NCBI RefSeq assembly: GCF_041821045.1
Contig: NZ_JBGUAW010000007.1
Span: forward strand, 1 to 64,000
Direction of reading: 5' to 3'
Length of the DNA: 64,000 nt
Source: Thiohalorhabdus sp. Cl-TMA
Lineage (GTDB): Bacteria > Pseudomonadota > Gammaproteobacteria > Thiohalorhabdales > Thiohalorhabdaceae
Shown: piece after piece, positions 132-15,880 of the stretch
Numbering within the stretch: the first letter of the stretch is position 1
Layout: every line of letters begins with the position of its first letter
Made by a program: the position numbers and the translations under genes
Notes under the pieces: model-generated
Databases searched by the model: none
The model's input: the letters and a program-made list of their open reading frames with translations, nothing else
What the model was told of the DNA's origin: nothing

Positions 132-3100
132 CTATCTCTGCCTTACCCGCCACCCCTGCACCCACCGATAAACCACCGGAATCACAATCAAGGTCAGGAT
201 AGTGGTCGTCACCATTCCCCCCACCATGGGCCCGGCGATACGCTTCATGACCTGCGAGCCGGTGCCGTGGCCGATCATGATGGGCAGCAGGCCCAGCGTG
301 GTGGCGAGCACGGTCATGGCGATGGGGCGGATGCGGCGCAAGGCGCCGTCCATGATGGCCTCACGCAGGCCGCCTTCCTCTTCCAGTCGGCCTTCCTCCC
401 GGTAGCGCTGCACGGCCAGATTCAGGTAGACGAGCATCACCACGCCGATCTCCACCGCCACGCCGGCCAGGGCGATGAAGCCCACCCCCGCGGCGATGGA
501 GAGGTCGTAGCCGAGCAGGTAGAACAGCCAAAAGCCCCCCACCAGGGCGAAGGGCACGGTGCCGAGGACCACGGCCACCTCGGTGAGGCGGCGGAAGTTC
601 AGGTACAGCAGCAACGCGATGATCACCAGGGTCAGCGGCACCAGGAGCTGCAGCTTGGCCATGGCCCGCTGCATGTACTCGTACTGCCCGGACCAGGTGA
701 GCGAGTAGCCGGGCGGGATGTCCACCTGCTCCGCCACCGCCTTTTTCGCGCGCTGCACGTAGGTGCCGATGTCCACGTTCTGGATGTCGAGGTAGACGTA
801 GCCATTCAGCCGGGCGTTGTCGCTCTTGATCATGGGCGGGCCGGTCTCCACCCGGATGTCCGCCACCTGGGTCAGCGGCACCTGGGCGCCCGTCGGCGTG
901 GCCACGCGCACCTGGCGCAGCTCCTCCAGGCGGTCGCGGTACTCGCGCGGGTAGCGCAGGTTGATGGGGTAGCGCTCGCGGCCCTCTACGCTCTGGGTGA
1001 CGTTCATGCCGCCCACGGCGGTGCGCACCACCTCCTGCACGTCGGCGACGTTCAGGCCGTAGCGGGCGGCGAGCGCGCGGTCCACGTCCACCGAGACGTA
1101 GCGGCCGCTGGCGGTGCGCTCGGCGTAGGCCGACGCCGTGCCCGGCACCTCGGCGAGCACCTGCTCGATGCGCCCGGCGAGCTCCTGGATGCCGGCGAGC
1201 TCGGGGCCGGCCACCTTGATGCCCACCGGGGTCTTGATGCCGGTGGCGAGCATGTCGATGCGCGTCTTGATGGGCATGGTCCAGGCGTCGGTGAGGCCGG
1301 GGATGTCGATGGCCCGGTCCAGCTCCCGTTTCAGCTTCTCCACCGTCATGCCCTCCCGCCACTCGGACTTCGGCTTGAGGGTGATGGTGGTCTCGATCAT
1401 GGTCAGCGGCGCAGGGTCGGTGGCGGTCTCGGCGCGGCCCACCTTGCCGAAGGTAGTCTCCACCTCGGGGAAGGACTGGATGATCTTGTCGGTCTGCTGC
1501 AGGAGCTGCTTGGCCTTGCCGATGGAGATGCCCGGGTCGGTGGTGGGCATGTACAGCAGGTCGCCCTCCCACAGCGGCGGCATGAACTCCGTGCCGAGCT
1601 TGCTGTAGGGGTAGTAGGTGGAGGCGAGCACGGCCACGGTGAGGGCCACGGTGGTCTTGGGGAAGCGCAGGGCGGCGCCGATCACCGGCCGGTAGGCGGC
1701 CGTCACGGCGCGGTTCACCGGGTTCTCCGACTCGCCGCGGATGCGGCCGCGGATGAAGTAGCCCATGAGCACCGGCACCAGGGTGATGGACAGCCCGGCG
1801 GCGATGGCCATGGCGTAGGTCTTGGTGAAGGCGAGCGGCGCGAACAGCCGGCCCTCCTGCGCCTCCAGGGCGAACACCGGCACGAAGGACAGGGCGATGA
1901 TGAGCAGGCTGAAGAACAGCGCCGGGCCCACCTCCACGGCGGTGCGGCGCACCACCTCCCAGCGCTCCGCCTCCGGGTCGCGCTCCAGGTGCTTGTGGGC
2001 GTTCTCGATCATGACCATGGCGCCGTCCACCATGGTGCCGATGGCCAGGGCGATGCCGCCCAGGGACATGATGTTGGCGTTGATGCCCTGGTAGTACATG
2101 ACCACGAAGGCGCCGAGGATCCCCAGCGGCAGGGCCACCACCGCCACGAAGGTGGAGCGCAGGTGGAACAGGAAAATCAGCGCCACCGCGGCGACGATCA
2201 GCAGCTCCTCGATGAGTCGATCGCGCAGGGTGTCCACGGCGTCGGTGATCAGCCCGGAGCGGTCGTAGGTGGGCACGATCTCCACGCCCTCCGGCAGGCC
2301 GTCCTTGAGCTTCTCCAGGCGCGCCTTCACCCGGTCGATGGTGGCCAGGGCGTTCTCGCCGTAGCGCATGACGATGATGCCGCCGGCCACCTCGCCGTTG
2401 CCGTTCAGCTCCGCCACGCCGCGGCGCAGCTCCGGCCCAAAGCGCACCTCGGCCACGTCGCGGATGTGGATGGGCGTGCCGTCACTGTCCACGGCCACGG
2501 GGATGGTGCGCAGGTCGTCCAGGGAGTCCACGTAGCCCCGGGCGCGCACCATGTACTCCGCCTCGGCCATCTCCACCACCGAGCCGCCGGCCTCCTGGTT
2601 GCCGCGCTGGAGCGCCTTTTTCACCCGGGACAGCGGGATCTCCAGGGCGAGCAGCTTCTCCGGGTCCACCACCACCTGGTACTGGCGCACCATGCCGCCC
2701 ACGGCGGCCACCTCGGCCACGCCCTCCACGGTCTGCAGCTCGTACTTGAGGAACCAGTCCTGCAGGGAGCGCAGCTCGGCCAGGGAGTGCTGCCCGGTGC
2801 GGTCGACTAAGGCGTACTGGTAGATCCAGCCCACCGAGGTGGCGTCGGGCCCCAGGGAGGGCTGGACGCCGTCGGGCAGCTCCGAGGCGGCCTCGTTGAG
2901 GTACTCCAGCACCCGCGAGCGGGCCCAGTACATGTCGGTGCCGTCCTCGAAGACCACGTAGACGTAGGAGTCGCCGAAGAAGGAATAGCCGCGCACCGCC
3001 TTGGTGCCGGGCACGGAGAGCATGGTGGTGGTGAGCGGGTAGGTGACCTGGTCCTCCACCACCTGCGGCGCCTGGCCGGGGTATTCGGTCTTGATGATCA

Positions 3101-3239
3101 CCTGGACGTCCGAGAGGTCCGGAATGGCGTCCAGGGGCGTGCGCAGCATGGCGAAGATGCCCCAGCCCAGGAGCAGCAGCGCACCGACCACCACCAGGAA
3201 GCGATTAGCCAGGGACCATTCGATGACGCGGCGGATCAT
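132..3239 (-). CDS. cusA: Cu(I)/Ag(I) efflux RND pump CusA
   Basis: Inner-membrane proton-driven RND pump that exports monovalent copper or silver through the CusCBA tripartite channel. At 1035 aa it has the family length. The N-terminus is a membrane helix (residues about 13-32) ending in the family-typical TPLDAIPDLSD. The three methionines of the CusA metal path are in conserved contexts: LLYMPT near residue 563, LTMIETT near 613 and DMLATGI near 662. This favours Cu/Ag over the divalent CzcA class. The relay aspartate is in MVDGAMVMIENAHKHLE (near 403). The ATG overlaps the cusB stop (ATGA), indicating translational coupling. It is the last gene of the operon. Confidence 0.93.
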   Translation of the reverse strand: MIRRVIEWSLANRFLVVVGALLLLGWGIFAMLRTPLDAIPDLSDVQVIIKTEYPGQAPQVVEDQVTYPLTTTMLSVPGTKAVRGYSFFGDSYVYVVFEDGTDMYWARSRVLEYLNEAASELPDGVQPSLGPDATSVGWIYQYALVDRTGQHSLAELRSLQDWFLKYELQTVEGVAEVAAVGGMVRQYQVVVDPEKLLALEIPLSRVKKALQRGNQEAGGSVVEMAEAEYMVRARGYVDSLDDLRTIPVAVDSDGTPIHIRDVAEVRFGPELRRGVAELNGNGEVAGGIIVMRYGENALATIDRVKARLEKLKDGLPEGVEIVPTYDRSGLITDAVDTLRDRLIEELLIVAAVALIFLFHLRSTFVAVVALPLGILGAFVVMYYQGINANIMSLGGIALAIGTMVDGAMVMIENAHKHLERDPEAERWEVVRRTAVEVGPALFFSLLIIALSFVPVFALEAQEGRLFAPLAFTKTYAMAIAAGLSITLVPVLMGYFIRGRIRGESENPVNRAVTAAYRPVIGAALRFPKTTVALTVAVLASTYYPYSKLGTEFMPPLWEGDLLYMPTTDPGISIGKAKQLLQQTDKIIQSFPEVETTFGKVGRAETATDPAPLTMIETTITLKPKSEWREGMTVEKLKRELDRAIDIPGLTDAWTMPIKTRIDMLATGIKTPVGIKVAGPELAGIQELAGRIEQVLAEVPGTASAYAERTASGRYVSVDVDRALAARYGLNVADVQEVVRTAVGGMNVTQSVEGRERYPINLRYPREYRDRLEELRQVRVATPTGAQVPLTQVADIRVETGPPMIKSDNARLNGYVYLDIQNVDIGTYVQRAKKAVAEQVDIPPGYSLTWSGQYEYMQRAMAKLQLLVPLTLVIIALLLYLNFRRLTEVAVVLGTVPFALVGGFWLFYLLGYDLSIAAGVGFIALAGVAVEIGVVMLVYLNLAVQRYREEGRLEEEGGLREAIMDGALRRIRPIAMTVLATTLGLLPIMIGHGTGSQVMKRIAGPMVGGMVTTTILTLIVIPVVYRWVQGWRVRQR

Positions 3240-5275
3240 GAATGGGCCTCCGGGCCGGCATCAGCCCCCCTGTGGGAGCGGCTTCCAGCCGCGACAGAAA
3301 ACCCTAAGCTTTCCCGAATCCCAAACCGAAAGGCGTCGCGGCCGGAGGCCGCTCCCACTGGGGGCATTACCAGCGCGTGCTCTTCGGAGGCCGCCTTCAC
3401 AGGAGGCATTGCGGCAGCGGGCACCCGATCCCGATCGCGCTGAGCCATCCCTTTGGTCAGGATTGCCCACCCGGAGGAGGCCTTGGTGGCAGCGGCCTCC
3501 CGGCCGCGACGGCTTCCGACCGCAATAGGCCGGGTTAAGGCCCCCGAACGATTCAACCGAAAGGCGTCGCGGCCGGAGGCCGCTCCCACGGGGGGCGTTA
3601 CCGGGGCGTGCTCCCCGGAGGCCTCCTCCACGGGAGGGATTGCGGCCTTGGGCGCCCGATCCGGGGCGAGCCGAGCCGTCCCCTTGTCGAGGATTCCCCA
3701 CTGGGAGGGGATCCCTGTGGGAGCGGCCTCCTGGCCGCGACGCTTCGATTTCCCACCCCACTTGCCCGGCTCTCCGCCCCCATCCAGGCCGGGCGCGCCC
3801 AGCAGGGAGGTCTTCTCCTCCATGGAATGGCCTTCATGGTCCATGGGGGAACCGGCATCCTCCTCCATGGACTCTTGGTCCATGTCGCCGTGATTCATGG
3901 AGTCACCGGAGCCGTCCTTCCGCCCCCTGTTCGTGTCCCCGTGATCCATCCCCTCCATGTCCTTCTTCTTCTCCCCCGAATCCATGCGCTCCATGGCGGC
4001 GCCGAAGTCGCTCTCGGCGTCGAGCAGGAACTGCCCCGACGTGACCACCTTCTGCCCGGCGGCGAGGCCCTTGCGGATCTCCACCCACTCGCCGGACTCC
4101 ACGCCGGTTTTTACCTTCACCGGCCGGAAGCGGCCCTCGCCGAGGGCGGTGACCACCACCTCACGCTTGCCGGTGCGGATCACGGACTCGCGCGGCACGG
4201 CGATGACGTCCTTTTGCGGGTCGGCGTGGATGACCGCCTTGGCGAACATCTGCGGCTTGAGGGTGCCGTCGGGGTTGTCGAAGACCAGGCGGGCGTTGAC
4301 GGTGCGGGTGTCCGGGTCCATGTAGGGGTATACGTAGTCCACCTTGCCCCGCCACTCGCGGCCCGGGTAGAAGGGCAGCTCCAGGGTTACCGGGTCATTC
4401 TCCGCCACCCACTCGGCCTGGTAGGCGTAGACGTCGGCCATGACCCACACGGTGGACAGGTCCGCCACGGTGTAGAGGTTCTTCTCCGGGGTGACGCGCA
4501 TGCCCTCGCGCACGCCGAGCCGGGTCACCACCCCGGCGTGGGGCGCGCGCAGCACCACGGTGCGCTGGATCTCGCCGGTGCGGCGCAGCTCCTCGATCTC
4601 CTCGGGGGCGATGCCGTAGAACAGCAGCCGCTCGCGGGCCTGACGCACCATGTCCTCCATGGGCGAGACGGCCCCGGAGCCGCCCAGGCGCTGCTGGCGG
4701 CGCAGGGCGAGCAGGTATTCCTCCTGCGCGGTGACCAGCTCCGGCGAGTAGATCTCCAGGATGCGCTCGTCCACCGAGACCCGGTCGCCCTCGGCGTCCA
4801 GGTAGAGCTTCTCCACCCAGCCCTCCACCCGGGTGTGGATGTGGCTCACCTTGCGCTCGTCGTAGGTGACCGTGCCCACCGTGCGCAGGGTGCGGTTCAG
4901 GGTGCGGCGCTCGGCCTGGGCGGTCTTCACGCCCAGGTTGTTCACCACCTCCGGGCTGATCTCCACCGTGCCGGGCTTGCCCGCCGCCTCGTCGGCGTAG
5001 ACGGGCACCAGGTCCATGCCCATGGGCGACTTACCGGGCTTGTCGCGGCGGTAGGAGTCGTCCATGGGCGCGACCCAGTAGAGGACCTCGCGTTCCTCCT
5101 CGCCGCCGTCGTCCCTGTTGGCGGCCTGGCCTCCGGAGCCCTTGCCGCCGGATGCGGCGCCGCCGGTTTCCAGGCCCAGCCAGGTGGGTTGGTAAACGCC
5201 CACCCCGTAGAGTGCCCCAACGCCCAGGGCCACGCCGATTACCAGGAGGAGGGTGGATTTCAGAGTCGAGCTCAT
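3236..5275 (-). CDS. cusB: CusB-like periplasmic adaptor with repeat-derived C-terminal tail
   Basis: Periplasmic membrane-fusion protein linking CusA to the outer membrane channel. It has an N-terminal membrane anchor (about residues 7-27) and a heavy-metal-binding segment (YWVAPMDD, then PGKSPMGMDLVP) that carries the CusB-type methionines. HlyD-type lipoyl/barrel domains run to about residue 430. A Met/His/Asp-rich stretch with MDHGD, MNHGDMD and MDHEGHSM motifs follows at about 440-495, a plausible extra metal-binding tail. At 679 aa it is about 170 residues longer than I expect for the family. From about residue 510 the frame reads through five REP-like palindromes and a diverged 231-bp tandem repeat (PPVGAASGRDAF appears twice). 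The ATG at 5275 is preceded by AAGGAAG. The N-terminal two thirds are secure; whether the tail has a role is unknown. Confidence 0.9.
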   Translation of the reverse strand: MSSTLKSTLLLVIGVALGVGALYGVGVYQPTWLGLETGGAASGGKGSGGQAANRDDGGEEEREVLYWVAPMDDSYRRDKPGKSPMGMDLVPVYADEAAGKPGTVEISPEVVNNLGVKTAQAERRTLNRTLRTVGTVTYDERKVSHIHTRVEGWVEKLYLDAEGDRVSVDERILEIYSPELVTAQEEYLLALRRQQRLGGSGAVSPMEDMVRQARERLLFYGIAPEEIEELRRTGEIQRTVVLRAPHAGVVTRLGVREGMRVTPEKNLYTVADLSTVWVMADVYAYQAEWVAENDPVTLELPFYPGREWRGKVDYVYPYMDPDTRTVNARLVFDNPDGTLKPQMFAKAVIHADPQKDVIAVPRESVIRTGKREVVVTALGEGRFRPVKVKTGVESGEWVEIRKGLAAGQKVVTSGQFLLDAESDFGAAMERMDSGEKKKDMEGMDHGDTNRGRKDGSGDSMNHGDMDQESMEEDAGSPMDHEGHSMEEKTSLLGAPGLDGGGEPGKWGGKSKRRGQEAAPTGIPSQWGILDKGTARLAPDRAPKAAIPPVEEASGEHAPVTPPVGAASGRDAFRLNRSGALTRPIAVGSRRGREAAATKASSGWAILTKGMAQRDRDRVPAAAMPPVKAASEEHALVMPPVGAASGRDAFRFGIRESLGFSVAAGSRSHRGADAGPEAHS
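3272..3741. repeat. Five REP-like palindromes inside the cusB coding region
   Basis: Copies lie at 3272-3295, 3335-3358 (inverted), 3486-3510, 3566-3589 (inverted) and 3717-3741. Each has the form GTGGGAGC...CCGCGAC, and adjacent copies alternate in orientation as in BIME arrays. The block also contains a diverged direct repeat of 231 bp. For example, the segment starting ggcgtcgcgg is at 3332 and 3563, and the ggatt segment is at 3460 and 3691. Because 231 is a multiple of three, the cusB frame survives through all units. Confidence 0.85.
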
Positions 5276-5334
5276 TGGGTGCTTCCTTGGCGAATCGGGT
5301 TGTCCGGAGCGGGCGTTGATGGAGCCAGACCGCC

Positions 5335-5421
5335 GTGGGAGCGGCTTCCAGCCGCGACGATCCGTTTTCCGTTTCGAGAGCCACCCATGGGAAAGGCGTC
5401 GCGGCCGGAGGCCGCTCCCAC
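5335..5421. repeat. REP-like pair between cusB and cusC
   Basis: Two inverted copies of the REP-like element, at 5335-5358 and 5398-5421, fill the 201-bp gap between the TolC-family gene and cusB. The pair could form a long hairpin within the operon transcript and affect relative expression of the cus genes. That role is inferred. Confidence 0.8.
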
Positions 5422-5476
5422 GGGAGGCGCCGATACCGTTAGAGGACGATCCCGGCCGCGACGCTCGAAACCGGCC

Positions 5477-6754
5477 TCAATCCGCATGACCGGCTCCCTT
5501 CCCCCCGGCGGCCAGGTACAGCAGGTCCGCCTTGGCCTGCTCGGCGTCCACGCGCAGCCGCCAGAGGTCGAGCTGGTGCTGGAAGTCCTCGATGCGGGCG
5601 CGCACCAGGTCGAGGAAGCCCAGGCGGCCGGTGGTGTAGGCGGCCACGGAGGCCTCCACGGTCTGCTCGCTCTCGGGGAGGATGGTGTCCTCGAACAACG
5701 CCACCCGCTCGCGAGCCGCCTCCAGCGCCGCCCGCTTGGATCGCGCGGTGCTGCGCAGGTCGAGGAGCATGGTCCGCCGCTGGCGCTCCAGGGCGTCGCG
5801 CTCGGCAAGGGCGGCGGCGAGCATGCCGTCGTGCTTCGCCTGGTTGAAGATGGGCAGGGACATGCGGAAGCGGGCGGTGACGAAGTCCGCCCAGGCGCCG
5901 CCGTCGGGCTCGCTGCCGGGCCGGTGGCCATAGACGAAATCCACGCCCATGTCCGGGTAGTAAGCCTTCTCCGCCAGGTCCACGCCCGTGCGGCGCCGCT
6001 GGATGCGGGCCTCCATGGACTGGACGCTCGGGTGGTCCGCCAGACCTTTCGCGAGGGCCTCGCGGGCGGGCGGATCGGGAAGCTCCGGCAGGGCGTCGGG
6101 CAACCGGAAGCGGCCTTCCCGCCCGGCCAGGAGGTTGGCCAGGCGGCTATCGGCGGTGGCCTTGCGGCGCTCCAGCTCGGCGCGCTTGTCCAGGAGCTTG
6201 TCGCGCTCCAGATTGGCGAGCAGCACCTCCTGCTGCAGGCCCTTGCCCACCCGGTACTGGGAGCGGGCGATGGCCAGCAGCTCCTCGAACAGGGCCAGGT
6301 TCTCCTCCACCACCGCCAAGGCCCGGTCCAGATAGAAACGCTCCAGCCACGCCTTGCGCACCCGGCGCACCAGCTCGGCGCGGGTATCGGCCCGCTTCCA
6401 GCGGTAGGCCTCGCCCTTCTCCTGCGCCCGGCGCTCGCGCAGCGCCAGGGTGCCGGGCGCCGGGAAGTCCTGGTGGAGGCCCACCTGCACCTGGGTCATG
6501 GGCTCCTGGTCGAGGGCGAAGGTATCCGTGGGCACATTGGATAGGCCCACCGACATGCGCGGATCGGAAAGCGTGCCCTCGGCCACGGCGCGGCGCTCGG
6601 CGCCACGGATGCGCGCCTCCAGATCGGCCAGGGAGGGATGGTTCTGGAGGCTGCGGGACTCGGCCCGCTCCAGGGTAAGCACGGGACCCGCCGCCGGCGC
6701 GGCGGCCAGGGACCCGGCGAACAGGCACAGGAACAACGACAGGGAAATACGCAC
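5477..6754 (-). CDS. cusC: TolC-family outer membrane efflux protein (CusC-like)
   Basis: Outer membrane channel of the Cus-type efflux system. It has two repeats of long amphipathic helices typical of the OEP/TolC family (about residues 20-215 and 225-425) and a cleavable signal peptide (SLSLFLCLFAGSLAAAPA). I chose the GTG start at 6754 because AGGAG lies seven bases upstream. An upstream TTG at 6772 is in frame but lacks such a site. The length of about 425 aa fits CusC/CzcC. There is no obvious lipobox cysteine, unlike E. coli CusC. It is encoded just upstream of cusB on the same strand, so it probably serves the same pump. Confidence 0.85.
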   Translation of the reverse strand: MRISLSLFLCLFAGSLAAAPAAGPVLTLERAESRSLQNHPSLADLEARIRGAERRAVAEGTLSDPRMSVGLSNVPTDTFALDQEPMTQVQVGLHQDFPAPGTLALRERRAQEKGEAYRWKRADTRAELVRRVRKAWLERFYLDRALAVVEENLALFEELLAIARSQYRVGKGLQQEVLLANLERDKLLDKRAELERRKATADSRLANLLAGREGRFRLPDALPELPDPPAREALAKGLADHPSVQSMEARIQRRRTGVDLAEKAYYPDMGVDFVYGHRPGSEPDGGAWADFVTARFRMSLPIFNQAKHDGMLAAALAERDALERQRRTMLLDLRSTARSKRAALEAARERVALFEDTILPESEQTVEASVAAYTTGRLGFLDLVRARIEDFQHQLDLWRLRVDAEQAKADLLYLAAGGKGAGHAD

Positions 6755-6832
6755 GGAACCGCTCCTGAGCAAGGACAGGACGCATACCGCCGGCGCCCTG
6801 CCGGACGCCGGCGCCCTACGGAGCGGTTCGGA

Positions 6833-7311: not shown

Positions 7312-7443
7312 GTCGCGGCCGGAGGGCGCTCCCACCAGGGGCAGGGCCGCCGTGGGTGGCCGCTTGCCGCCGGGCGCGGCTTCTTTCCCTGCAAGGCTCC
7401 CCATCCAGAGTAGGCCCCTGTGGGAGGGACCTCCGGTCCCGAC
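7312..7443. repeat. REP-like pair upstream of the cus operon
   Basis: REP-like copies lie at 7312-7335 (inverted orientation) and 7420-7443, in the 250-bp gap between nsrR and the cus operon. The second has compensating changes (GGGAGGGACCTCCGGTCCC), so its stem is kept while its sequence differs. This supports selection on structure, or an independent variant of the element. I see no other clear feature in this gap. Confidence 0.75.
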
Positions 7444-7469: not shown

Positions 7470-7907
7470 TCAGGTCGCCGGTGCCTGGTCGAACAGCGCG
7501 TGGAGGATCTGCTCCTGCTGCACCACCAGATCCGCCAGCGTATAGCTGTCCAGGACGGCCAGGAAGGCGTCGCGCGCCTCGCCCAGGGCCGTTCGCAGCC
7601 GGCACGGGGCGATGATGGGGCATTCCGTGCCGACGCAGTCGATGATGTCCAGGTTCTCTTCCATGACGCGCACCACCGCGCCCACCCCGATCTGCTCGGG
7701 GGGCATGCCCAGGCGGATGCCACCGCCCTTGCCACGCACGGTCTGCAGGTAGCCCTCGCGGCCCAGGACGTTGACCACCTTCACCAGGTGGTTGCGCGAG
7801 ATCTTGTAGACCTCCGCCACCTCGGTGATGGTGGCCAGCTCGTTATTGCGTGCCCCCAGGTACATGAGCACCCGCAGGGCGTAGTCGGTATGTCGCGTCA
7901 GACGCAT
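7470..7907 (-). CDS. nsrR: Nitric-oxide-sensing Rrf2-family repressor NsrR
   Basis: Rrf2-family winged-helix regulator that holds an iron-sulfur cluster and loses DNA binding on reaction with NO. At 145 aa it has the family length. The N-terminus MRLTRHTDYALRVLMYLG is typical, including the Asp8 reported as a cluster ligand in Streptomyces NsrR. The three cluster cysteines are C91, C96 and C102 (C-VGTE-C-PIIAP-C), the spacing of E. coli NsrR. It is transcribed divergently from the CuA/heme-copper cluster. It therefore probably represses that cluster and perhaps itself, which strongly suggests the cluster handles NO. Confidence 0.92.
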   Translation of the reverse strand: MRLTRHTDYALRVLMYLGARNNELATITEVAEVYKISRNHLVKVVNVLGREGYLQTVRGKGGGIRLGMPPEQIGVGAVVRVMEENLDIIDCVGTECPIIAPCRLRTALGEARDAFLAVLDSYTLADLVVQQEQILHALFDQAPAT

Positions 7908-8027: not shown

Positions 8028-8056
8028 TTAAAGTTGTACTAACAATGCAACTTTAA
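8028..8056. promoter_or_regulatory. Inverted repeat, candidate NsrR operator
   Basis: Perfect 9-bp arms TTAAAGTTG and CAACTTTAA with an 11-bp spacer sit in the nsrR / heme-copper cluster intergenic region and end just before the ribosome-binding site GGAGGAGG. One helical turn between half-sites, AT-rich arms and the divergent NsrR gene make this the best operator candidate in the gap. It does not match the E. coli consensus base for base. Confidence 0.6.
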
Positions 8057-8070
8057 CGGAGGAGGCCCCC

Positions 8071-8607
8071 ATGCACCAGGAGATCGCGTGGCAGGTATCC
8101 CTGCTGGGGATCCTGTTCATCGCCGCGGTGTTCCTCTTCGTGTTCCTGCGCTCCAGCGATTCCACCGAATACGGGCCCGTCCAGAAGCGCTTCTACCGGG
8201 TACGGGCGTTCTGGTTCTGGGCGCTGGTGGCGGTAGGCGGCTGGCTGTCCGTGGAGACGCTGGCGAGCCTGCCCTACGCGGCCACCCACGGCCAGGCCGA
8301 GCAGTCCCCGGCGGTGGCCGTGGATGTAACCGGGCACCAGTGGTACTGGGACATGAGCCGGACCGAGGTTCCCGCCGGACGCACCGTGGAGTTCCGCATC
8401 ACCTCCGCGGACGTGAACCACGGCTTCGCCATCTATAACGCCGACCGGGAGGTGGTGGCCCAGACCCAGGCCATGCCCGGCTATACCAACAAGCTGCGCC
8501 ACACCTTCCGCGAGCCGGGCACCTACAAGGTCATGTGCCTGGAGTACTGCGGCCTGGCCCACCACAACATGACCGCGCAGATCACGGTCACGGCCCGCGA
8601 AGGCTGA
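8071..8607 (+). CDS. CuA-containing subunit II of heme-copper (sNOR-type) reductase
   Basis: Electron-input subunit that passes electrons from a periplasmic donor through a binuclear CuA centre to the catalytic subunit. It has 178 aa, short for an aa3 subunit II. Two membrane helices (about residues 8-28 and 45-65) precede a cupredoxin domain. CuA ligands are visible: H117 (VNHGF), then C156-LEY-C160 with E158, H164 and M167. The start follows a strong GGAGGAGG. It is first in the cluster, 15 bp before the catalytic gene. Its sequence alone would be annotated cytochrome c oxidase subunit II. The NsrR context and partner subunit favour NorS of the norSY-senC-orf1 type. Confidence 0.85.
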   Translation: MHQEIAWQVSLLGILFIAAVFLFVFLRSSDSTEYGPVQKRFYRVRAFWFWALVAVGGWLSVETLASLPYAATHGQAEQSPAVAVDVTGHQWYWDMSRTEVPAGRTVEFRITSADVNHGFAIYNADREVVAQTQAMPGYTNKLRHTFREPGTYKVMCLEYCGLAHHNMTAQITVTAREG

Positions 8608-8622
8608 AGGGAGGAAAAAGCC

Positions 8623-10101
8623 ATGAGCAATCCGTACCAGCCCGACACCGAGCTCGGGCGTCCCGAGCGCCAGGTGGTGCTGGCCTACATGGGCACCGCC
8701 GGGATTCTGCTGCTGCTGATGATGGCCTTCGGCCTGATTATGCGCCTCGCGCAGGGCGACCTGCTGGGCGTCGCCCCCGACTGGTTCTACCGCATCCTCA
8801 CCCTGCACGGCACGGGCATGGTGGGCCTAGCGGGACTCGCCGGCGCCGGCATCATGTGGTACTTCCTGCGCAAGCACGTGCACCTGTCCCTGCCGGTGGC
8901 CTGGACCAACCTGGTGCTGTTCCTGATCGGCGTGGTGCTGATCCTGGGCGGCGTCCTGGCGGGCGGCTACGCGGGCGGCTGGACTTTCCTCTACCCCCTG
9001 CCCGCCAAGCCCATGGGCATGTGGTCCACCACCGGCGCGGCCGCCTTCCTCACGGGCCTGCTGCTGATCGGCGTGGGCTTCCTGCTGCTGCACCTGGACA
9101 CGGCGCGCGGCATCGTCGCCCGCTACGGCGGACTGGGCAAGGCCCTGGGCTGGCCGCAGCTCTTCGGCCGCAACGACGGCAACGCGCCGCCGGCGCCGGT
9201 GGTGGCCTCCACCATGGTGCTGATCGTCAACATCCTGGGGCTGGTGTCGGGCGCGGCCATCGTGGTGATGAGCCTGATCAACCTGTACTTCCCGGCCTTC
9301 CAGGTGGACCCGCTGCTGGCCAAGAACATGATCTACTTCTTCGGCCATGTGTTCATCAACGCCACCATCTACATGTCCGTGATCGCGGTCTATTCCCTGC
9401 TGCCGCGCTACACCGGCCGGCCCTGGAAATCCAGCACCAAGGCCTTCCTCGGCGCCTGGACCGCGTCCACGGTCATGGTGGTCATCGTCTACCCCCACCA
9501 CATCCTCATGGACTTCGCCCAGCCCCAGTGGCTGCACGTCATGGGGCAGATCATCTCCTACACCAGCGGCCTGCCGGTGCTGGTGGTGACCGCCTACGGC
9601 GCCATCACCATCCTTTACCGCAGCGGCATCCGGTGGGACCTGGCCTCCGGGCTGCTCACCCTGTCCGCCTTCGGCTGGGCCGCCGGCACCATCCCCGCCA
9701 TGGTGGACGCCACCATCGTGGTCAACGAGGTGATGCACAACACCCTGTGGGTGCCCGGGCACTTCCACTTCTATCTGCTGCTCGGCGTCATGGCCATGGC
9801 CCTGGGCTTCATGATCTGGATGGCCCGCACCTACGGTAACGGCAATAGCAGCTTCCTGGACGGGCCCGCCTTCTGGCTGTACGCCCTGGGCGGCCTGGGC
9901 CTGGTGGGCATGTTCCTCATGGGCGGCCGCGAGGGCGCGCCGCGGCGCTTCGCCGAGTACCTGGAGCCCTGGGTGCCCTATGCCCAGTGGGGCGCGCTGT
10001 TCGCCGCGCTGGTGCTCCTGGCAACCACCGTGCTGGTGGCACGCTTCTTCGGCCAGTTCCTGGCCGGGCGGCAGGAGGCGTCGGATGCGCGCGTGGCTTA
10101 G
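8623..10101 (+). CDS. Heme-copper catalytic subunit lacking the oxidase tyrosine, probable sNOR-type NO reductase
   Basis: Twelve-helix-type membrane subunit of 492 aa. Heme and CuB ligands are present: H62 (TLHGTG, low-spin heme), H242 (GHVFIN, CuB), H292 and H293 (YPHHIL, CuB), H380 and H382 (PGHFHFY, high- and low-spin heme). In O2-reducing A-type enzymes the CuB histidine starts HPEVY and the Tyr four residues on is cross-linked. Here that residue is Asn246, so the standard proton/electron-donating tyrosine is absent, as in nitric oxide reductases. With a CuA subunit, SCO protein and small membrane protein in order, this matches the sNOR family described in ammonia oxidisers. An odd oxidase remains possible without biochemistry. 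Confidence 0.85.
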   Translation: MSNPYQPDTELGRPERQVVLAYMGTAGILLLLMMAFGLIMRLAQGDLLGVAPDWFYRILTLHGTGMVGLAGLAGAGIMWYFLRKHVHLSLPVAWTNLVLFLIGVVLILGGVLAGGYAGGWTFLYPLPAKPMGMWSTTGAAAFLTGLLLIGVGFLLLHLDTARGIVARYGGLGKALGWPQLFGRNDGNAPPAPVVASTMVLIVNILGLVSGAAIVVMSLINLYFPAFQVDPLLAKNMIYFFGHVFINATIYMSVIAVYSLLPRYTGRPWKSSTKAFLGAWTASTVMVVIVYPHHILMDFAQPQWLHVMGQIISYTSGLPVLVVTAYGAITILYRSGIRWDLASGLLTLSAFGWAAGTIPAMVDATIVVNEVMHNTLWVPGHFHFYLLLGVMAMALGFMIWMARTYGNGNSSFLDGPAFWLYALGGLGLVGMFLMGGREGAPRRFAEYLEPWVPYAQWGALFAALVLLATTVLVARFFGQFLAGRQEASDARVA

Positions 10102-10681
10102 CGCCATCGGGGCGGCCGTCCTGGGGACGGCCGCCCTCTTCTGGGGAACCGACGGCTTCCGGGCCCTGACGGCCGAGACCGCCCGCCGGATCGCCGTGTC
10201 CGAGCACCCGCGCGCGGTGCCGGACCTCCGCCTCCAGCTGCAGTCGGGGGCGGAGGCCCGGCTCCGCGATCTGCGCGGCGAGCTCGTGGTGGCCACCTTC
10301 ATCTACACCCGCTGCACCACCATGTGCCCCATGCTCGGCCTGCGCATGAAGCGGATCCGCGCCGCGCTGCCCGAGGGCGCGGCGGGCGCTGAGGTCCACC
10401 TGCTGAGCCTCAGCTTCGACCCCGAGCACGACACGCCGGACCGGCTGGCCGCCTACGCGGGCCGGTACGGGGCGCGGCCCGGCCACTGGTGGGTGGCCCG
10501 GCCCCGGAAGGGCCTTGAGGGGATACTGGATACCTTCGGTGTGGTGGTCCTGCCCGACGGCCGGGACGGCTTCCGGCACAACGGCGCCTTCTACCTGATC
10601 GACCGCGCGGGCCGGCTCACCGGCATCTATCCCGACGACAAGCCGCAGCGGGTGGCGGCGGCGGTGGAGGCGCGCCTGTGA
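10085..10681 (+). CDS. senC: SCO1/SenC family copper chaperone
   Basis: Membrane-anchored thioredoxin-fold copper chaperone that metallates the CuA centre of the partner subunit. It has 198 aa with one N-terminal helix (residues 5-20). The copper-binding CTTMC motif lies in YTRCTTMCPM, and a distal histidine in FRHNGAFYL is in the expected place. The ATG at 10085 overlaps the end of the catalytic-subunit gene by 17 bp and follows GGAGG, so the two are co-translated. Confidence 0.88.
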   Translation: MRAWLSAIGAAVLGTAALFWGTDGFRALTAETARRIAVSEHPRAVPDLRLQLQSGAEARLRDLRGELVVATFIYTRCTTMCPMLGLRMKRIRAALPEGAAGAEVHLLSLSFDPEHDTPDRLAAYAGRYGARPGHWWVARPRKGLEGILDTFGVVVLPDGRDGFRHNGAFYLIDRAGRLTGIYPDDKPQRVAAAVEARL

Positions 10682-11110
10682 TTCTTGCATGCCGCATTCG
10701 CCCCCGCCGACTCCCGGGTGCCCAGCCCGCCGGACCCTCCGAGAAGTCGGGACCGGGAGGTCGCTCCCACAGGGCGCTGTTCGGCCAGGGCGAAGCCCGA
10801 ACGGCTGGACCTCGATTCGGGCAGACACCGGGGATTCCGGAATCCCCGCAGACCATGGAGAGAAAGGCGGCCCCATGACCCGTCCCCGCCCAGTTCCTCC
10901 GGTCCCCGCGGTCCGGGGTGGCCGCTGCTCCCGCGGAAAACCGGTTGGCCGTCGTGGGAGCGACCTCCCGGTCGCGACATGCTCGAAGGAGCGCGCCCGT
11001 TGGATACCCGGCAGCACCCCGGCGCTTGCTTTCCCCGATAGGGGGTCGCCGCCTGAAAGCCGCTCCCACGGGGCCCGGTTCGGGGGCTGGGAGCCCCGGA
11101 AGGCGGCCCC
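10682..11110. repeat. 429-bp REP-rich insert with duplicated start-codon region
   Basis: No convincing gene. Three REP-like copies are present at 10746-10770, 10954-10978 and 11045-11069. A 19-bp direct repeat AAGGCGGCCCCATGACCCG occurs at 10864-10882 and at 11100-11118, where it contains the start codon of the following gene. The first copy looks like a relic of that gene start displaced when the REP block arose. Several long open frames through the block are translations of the palindromes. Confidence 0.75.
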
Positions 11111-11701
11111 ATGACCCGCGCTTCCCGCAACGCCCTGGCGGCCGGGCTCGGCCTGTGGGCTCTGCTCGCCCTGCCGCCCTTGCGGGTCGGCCTGGAGGCC
11201 ACGCTCGCCGGGCACATGGCGGTCCAGCTGCCCCTGCTGGTGGCGGCGGGCTGGTGGCTGGGCCGGGTGCCCGGACCGGTGCGGGCGGACGAGCTGGCCG
11301 GCTTCAACCGCTTCGGGGCGCCCGGCGTGCTGCTGGCCGCCTTCACCCTCGCCTTCTGGCTGCTGCCCCGCTCCCTGGACGCGGCCCTCCAGGATCCCGC
11401 CTGGGAGGCGGCCAAGCTCCTGAGCGTGCCGCTTCTGGCGGGCGTCCCGCTGGGCCGCAGCTGGCCGCGCCTGCCGGGCCTGGGCCGCGCCGCGCTGTGG
11501 GCCAACCTCCTGCCCATGCTGGGGGTGATGGGCTGGGTCTACATCCAATCGCCGGTGCGGCTCTGCAACAGCTACCTCCTCGACCAGCAGGACCTGCTCG
11601 GCCGGGTGCTCCTGGGCATCGCCGCGCTGCTGGGGCTGTACTGGGTGGGCTGGACCTTCTTGGGAGGGCTGGGCCGCCGCCTGGCCCGGGAAACGGACTA
11701 G
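11111..11701 (+). CDS. Small integral membrane protein, orf1 of the NO reductase cluster
   Basis: A 196-aa protein with about five to six hydrophobic segments (near residues 15-30, 38-55, 72-90, 105-118, 134-150, 165-185) and short charged loops. I recognise no catalytic motif. Its position after CuA subunit, catalytic subunit and SCO protein corresponds to orf1 of the reported norSY-senC-orf1 gene clusters, which is also a membrane protein of unknown role. The REP block separates it from senC, so it may be transcribed separately or at a lower level. Confidence 0.7.
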   Translation: MTRASRNALAAGLGLWALLALPPLRVGLEATLAGHMAVQLPLLVAAGWWLGRVPGPVRADELAGFNRFGAPGVLLAAFTLAFWLLPRSLDAALQDPAWEAAKLLSVPLLAGVPLGRSWPRLPGLGRAALWANLLPMLGVMGWVYIQSPVRLCNSYLLDQQDLLGRVLLGIAALLGLYWVGWTFLGGLGRRLARETD

Positions 11702-15760: not shown

Positions 15761-15880
15761 GTGGGAGCGACCTCCGGTCGCGACGCCTTTCCCCGACTCG
15801 GCTAGTCGCGGGCGGGGGCCACTCCCACGAAGGGGGCCGGTTGGCAAGGGAGCCCTGTGGGAGCGGCCTCCGGCCGCGAG
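15761..15880. repeat. Three REP-like elements between convergent genes
   Basis: Copies lie at 15761-15784, 15805-15828 (inverted, degenerate) and 15857-15880, in the 274-bp gap between the convergent aldo/keto reductase and nitroreductase genes. Such a position is typical for REP elements, which may stabilise or terminate transcripts. Nothing else is evident in the gap. Confidence 0.8.

Follow-up and report, generated by a model that had tools for sequence, protein, structure and literature searches.

A gene cluster of the sNOR type in Thiohalorhabdus sp. Cl-TMA, probably under NsrR-like control and serving removal of nitric oxide

The window is the whole stretch of 64,000 nucleotides analysed (positions 1 to 64,000 of contig NZ_JBGUAW010000007.1). 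It carries genes for a CuA subunit, a heme-copper subunit, an SCO protein and a membrane protein, in this order and opposite an nsrR-type gene; the arrangement given in the initial annotation agrees with the open reading frames and the Pfam matches. The stretch delimited there starts at 8028, the exact first base of an NsrR-type palindrome. A copper or metal efflux operon (CusA/CzcA-CusB-TolC-like, 132-6772, minus strand) directly adjoins the copper-dependent NOR cluster. The features are as follows.

7470-7907, minus strand: gene of an NsrR-like repressor of the Rrf2 family (Pfam Rrf2, 125.6 bits), divergent from norS.
8028-8056, no strand: NsrR-type palindrome TTAAAGTTGTACTAACAATGCAACTTTAA, upstream of norS, core at 8031-8053.
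8071-8607, plus strand: norS, CuA (cupredoxin) subunit, Pfam COX2, two N-terminal hydrophobic segments.
8623-10101, plus strand: norY, heme-copper catalytic subunit I of the sNOR type, Pfam COX1 (169.7 bits), 492 aa.
9358-9360, plus strand: codon of Asn246 of norY, at the position of the cross-linked Tyr.
10085-10681, plus strand: sco/senC, CuA assembly protein, Pfam SCO1-SenC, with CxxxC (C77, C81) and H165.
10682-11110, no strand: block of REP-type repeats between sco and orf1.
11111-11701, plus strand: orf1, membrane protein of about six helices, AF2 pLDDT 92.

The CuA ligands of NorS are complete (H117, C156, E158, C160, H164, M167) and are kept across 49 aligned rows. The second hydrophobic segment of NorS was seen by sequence inspection and lies under a simple hydropathy threshold. 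The start of sco is taken as 10085; the mechanical reading frame begins at 9980. Both cysteines of the Sco CxxxC motif and H165 are conserved in the alignment.

NorY has all six histidines: H62 and H382 for the low-spin heme, H380 for the high-spin heme, and H242, H292 and H293 for CuB, the roles being assigned by alignment to the ba3 oxidase. They are invariant across the sNOR clade. Asn246 aligns with ba3 Tyr237, the cross-linking Tyr; the motif is GHVFIN, against GHPEVY with the cross-linked Tyr in the A-type. Asn is found at this position in 42 of 42 sNOR-like rows compared, Tyr in A- and B-type rows, Gln in eNOR-type rows and Glu in cNOR rows. The alignment bears out the histidines and the exchange of Tyr for Asn246, both named in the initial annotation. 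That annotation had also raised a compensating Tyr as an objection; neither known cross-link position (Asn246 in helix VI, Val286 in helix VII) holds one. Val286 occupies the cbb3 cross-link column, six residues before the HH pair, where no Tyr was found in NorY and where the genome's own cbb3 oxidase carries Tyr. Tyr290, near CuB, was rejected as an essential compensating Tyr because Phe replaces it in two loci (L035 and L087). A compensating phenol could still come from Tyr250, the chief remaining candidate, which is invariant and lies one turn of the helix away from Asn246.

The ba3 K-channel residues Tyr237, Tyr244, Ser309 and Thr315 correspond in the alignment to N, V, V and G of NorY; the positions of ba3 Tyr248 and Thr312 are kept as Tyr257 and Thr323. 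Judged from these residues, NorY lacks a large part of the ba3 K-channel. A published table lists sNOR with active-site N and 0 proton channels (PMC8756737). The AF2 model of NorY (pLDDT 87) has the heme-copper oxidase fold, with a query TM of ~0.82 to the A-type and ~0.78 to ba3.

A maximum-likelihood tree of NorY was built with IQ-TREE under LG+C20 PMSF from 59 rows. Reference rows were A-type, ba3 (including PDB 2qpd), eNOR-type and the cbb3 and cNOR of the same genome, with bNOR, gNOR and nNOR left out. NorY groups with two genomes of the same genus (100/100) and lies in a clade that includes the sNOR of Ruegeria pomeroyi (100/99). The clade stands apart from A-type (100/100), ba3, eNOR-type (100/100) and own-genome cbb3 and cNOR rows. 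A phylogeny of the catalytic subunit had been proposed as the check on the initial reading; among these references, which hold no bNOR or gNOR, it puts NorY outside the A-type oxidases. Deep branches between heme-copper groups gave long-branch warnings, of which the placement of the NorY tip is independent. NorY is 49% identical to the orthologue of Ruegeria pomeroyi, whose sNOR is entered as 'Silicibacter' in a literature table (PMC8756737). Rows from Alpha-, Beta- and Gammaproteobacteria are intermixed in the tree, which suggests transfer.

Membership in the A-type, ba3, cbb3, eNOR or cNOR groups is rejected by residues and tree, and both lines support the reading first proposed, an sNOR-type cluster and not an O2-reducing A-type oxidase. 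The features of sNOR membership were found together: six His, Asn, an upstream CuA subunit, channel loss (from sequence), gene order and clade. On sequence grounds the cluster is another sNOR, since its gene order matches norSY-senC-orf1 of ammonia oxidisers; it belongs to a kind of copper-containing NO reductase that is known, though little studied, and is not a new system.

Two further subunit I genes, L063:5923-7494 and L095:3185-4720 (both minus strand), fall beside sNOR on a long branch. At the Tyr position they carry Glu (AHNLME), and Met stands for the second helix-X His (SGHTM); the CuA subunit paired with them is complete (CLEYCGIVHHAM). They may encode nNOR or a CuA NOR not described so far. 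Thermus thermophilus plasmid pTF24b carries an eNOR-type (Gln) cluster (L100:2983-5140), annotated as ba3 oxidase, with an Rrf2 regulator directly downstream. On contig C1 (about 438 kb), at L005:1426-3063, a GcvH-like gene is flanked by two small membrane proteins of ~154 and 168 aa; the first is COX1/ccoN-like, and the region adjoins a CRP/FNR-type regulator.

The genes norS, norY, sco and orf1 occur together and in this order in 45 loci, a few of them near-duplicates. A clear sNOR is present in 13 of 369 genomes of the same class. The order norSY-senC-orf1 is described from ammonia-oxidising bacteria (PMC4940428). In a deeper Asn-type group (L037, L047 and L092, from Acidimicrobiia, Thermomicrobium and one genome of the same class), norS and norY occur without orf1; in the Thermomicrobium cluster CtaG is found in place of orf1. 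Homology of orf1 to CtaG, an idea that arose from that cluster, found no support (hhalign probability 1.6%). No Pfam match and no PDB fold match were found for orf1; matches to DUF1404 were weak and limited to 5 of 21 members. In alignments W83-P86-R87-D90 and P148-R150-C152 of orf1 are invariant and K102 is near-invariant. These residues suggest a specific role for orf1, likely as third subunit or assembly factor. The REP-type repeat sequence that separates sco from orf1 spans 430 bp. Repeats of this family (GTGGGAGCGACCTCCGGTCGCGA) have 56 matches in the genome and also occur at 7313-7442, 15761-15879 and elsewhere. In relatives the sco-orf1 gap holds a different repeat block (G001) or no repeats (G002).

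The repressor cysteines are arranged as C91-X4-C96-X5-C102, the NsrR-type spacing already pointed out in the initial annotation. The best NCBIfam model is NsrR, at 152.6 bits against a cut-off of 182, and the protein is termed NsrR-like because it stays under that cut-off despite the best score. The other two strong Rrf2 proteins of the genome look IscR-like and Suf-regulator-like. Upstream sites were scored in 40 sNOR loci with 100 dinucleotide shuffles each (floor p 0.01), using a consensus which we take to be the canonical E. coli NsrR site. The palindrome core of the window is at the shuffle floor. Matches to this E. coli NsrR consensus at p<=0.05 precede norS in 25 of the 40 loci (expected ~2) and reach the 0.01 floor in 17 (expected ~0.4); some of the loci are related, so that the counts are not fully independent. 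Fifteen of the 40 have no significant NsrR-like site. Near-perfect canonical sites are AAGATGCATACAAAATGCATCTT (L014) and AAGATGTATTTCAAATATATGTT (L020). The palindrome upstream of norS is conserved in G001, G002 and G021, where it is the sole perfect match genome-wide; the window's genome has three perfect matches, two of which adjoin genes with no evident NO link. The half-site is GTTG in the window and in G001 and GATG in most loci; the window and G001 also share the C-X4-C-X5-C arrangement of the repressor. Rrf2 genes lie near 24 sNOR clusters. A sigma-70 promoter scan found nothing. The link between NsrR and sNOR is not new, since NsrR is an established regulator of NO genes (PMC1274295) and an NsrR gene lies beside sNOR in Nitrosococcus oceani (PMC3772326). 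Its breadth across clusters is new, as far as the covered literature shows.

The host genome has a cNOR cluster on contig C5 (NorC, NorB, NorE/F-like, NorQ and NorD, named by sequence inspection), two NnrS proteins, and A-type and cbb3-type oxidases. NirK is absent from the genome, and no convincing NirS was found; the sole NirS-family match (30.5 bits) was rejected as NirS, being a YVTN-type beta-propeller lipoprotein-like protein. In at least 10 sNOR loci a formate/nitrite transporter gene lies directly downstream of orf1 (L046:7590-8408; also L007, L018, L020, L022, L028, L030, L031, L032 and L036). A formate/nitrite transporter also occurs in the Thermomicrobium roseum cluster (L047). The NO genes of the host and the transporter linkage point to nitrogen-oxide handling.

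From the genes, residues, clade, operon conservation and operator-like sites we infer the following for NO turnover, electron donor, NsrR binding and physiological role. The divergent NsrR would repress the promoter region of norS-norY-senC-orf1. NO would destroy the Fe-S cluster of NsrR, free the palindrome at 8028-8056 and so switch on the operon. Cytochrome c would hand electrons to CuA of NorS, from where they would reach the low-spin heme and then the high-spin heme/CuB centre of NorY. There 2 NO would be reduced to N2O; the His-Tyr cofactor, on which four-electron cleavage of O2 depends, is lacking. The SCO protein would load CuA; orf1 would act as a third subunit or in assembly. Taken as a whole, the cluster is read as an NsrR-repressed sNOR that reduces NO to N2O, most likely for induced NO removal (probability about 0.8). 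This removal might proceed with O2 present, in a cell that has cNOR and lacks a recognisable NO-forming nitrite reductase. The NsrR-type sites, the transporter linkage and a host with cNOR and NnrS, and with no NirK or convincing NirS, favour NO reduction over O2 respiration. Counted against the NO-reductase and NsrR reading are the repressor score under cut-off, the loci without a site and the two unrelated perfect sites; counted against the removal role is the cNOR of the host, beside which it may be redundant.

NO reductase activity is ascribed to sNOR mainly by inference, and it is disputed which of the two gases, NO or O2, the enzyme reduces in the cell. No purified sNOR is reported in the literature covered. 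For Nitrococcus mobilis, indirect evidence of NO reductase activity has been noted (PMC6967387). A paper of 2024 groups sNOR with the enzymes put forward on the basis of phylogeny and channels, separately from the biochemically characterised ones (PMC11388526). The sNOR of N. europaea is induced by O2 limitation and was proposed from transcriptomics to be a high-affinity oxidase (PMC6967387). An enzyme akin to B-type oxidases that reduces O2 with high affinity when O2 is limiting, and NO as a side reaction, would also fit the retained CuA and CuB ligands and the kept Tyr257 and Thr323 (ba3 Tyr248 and Thr312). It is unlikely here: the His-Tyr cofactor is missing at either known position, the K-channel is incomplete, control is of the NsrR type with nitrite-channel linkage, and A-type and cbb3-type oxidases are already in the genome.

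In the heme-copper superfamily, an enzyme with Asn instead of the Tyr is expected to be severely impaired in four-electron reduction of O2. This general view makes it quite unlikely that the enzyme is a bifunctional scavenger of NO and O2, active when NO inhibits the other oxidases under microoxic conditions, even though A2-, B- and C-type oxidases are cited as reducing NO in a side reaction (PMC6967387) and bNOR and eNOR were suggested to be active under microoxic conditions (PMC11388526). Assignment to the other Asn-type CuA NOR, bNOR (qCuANOR type I), is very improbable. Asn, CuA, SenC and a membrane protein are common to bNOR too (PMC8756737, PMC3475470). The 492-residue subunit I and the two N-terminal segments of subunit II fit the shorter type II (1482-bp gene) and not type I (~1700-bp), as given in PMC3475470; bNOR is predicted to have one channel (PMC8756737), whereas K-channel residues are missing in NorY. 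The identity to the Ruegeria sNOR and the shared clade also speak for sNOR, in a tree built without a bNOR reference.

No NCBIfam model reached its cut-off for the catalytic or the CuA subunit; the best were CtaD/SoxB and CoxB, far under threshold, so that automatic naming would fall back on 'oxidase'. The Ruegeria pomeroyi orthologue is annotated as 'cbb3-type cytochrome c oxidase subunit I', and KEGG labels sNOR coxA (PMC11388526), in line with the misannotation as cytochrome c oxidase that had been predicted initially. As sNOR is usually named cytochrome c oxidase, the capacity to reduce NO and the production of N2O are underestimated. In the dispute on sNOR, the NsrR-type sites and the linkage to nitrite channels in many clusters are genomic evidence for the NO side. 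At roughly even odds, proteobacterial sNOR clusters form a portable NO-response cassette, in many cases with a dedicated NsrR, whose operator is nearly confined to norS, and in many cases with a formate/nitrite channel; the main function of sNOR would then be that of an inducible NO reductase, not of a high-affinity oxidase.

The ba3 oxidase of T. thermophilus shares with the cluster the heme-copper fold, CuA and six His, and differs in cross-linked Tyr237, a full K-channel and a separate clade. The eNOR is likewise a CuA NOR related to B-type oxidases, but has Gln at the Tyr position and forms a separate clade. The bNOR (qCuANOR type I) has Asn for Tyr, a CuA subunit and SenC, and differs in a longer subunit I, one predicted proton channel and an extra 46-aa peptide (PMC8756737, PMC3475470). 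The qCuANOR type II of Bacillus azotoformans and Geobacillus (cbaB2-cbaA2-senC2-cbaC2) has the same gene order, a short subunit I with Asn, a subunit II with two N-terminal helices, SenC and a small membrane protein. It differs in its Gram-positive, menaquinol/cytochrome c context, and the available part of its account describes no NsrR link (PMC3475470). The sNOR of N. europaea (NE0683-86), N. oceani (Noc2969-71) and Ruegeria pomeroyi agree with the cluster in gene order and in having a CuA subunit, SCO, orf1 and the active-site Asn, and those of N. oceani and Ruegeria have an NsrR-type gene nearby, as in the window. From these known sNOR the cluster differs in the host lineage, in GTTG for the usual GATG half-site and in the REP block between sco and orf1.
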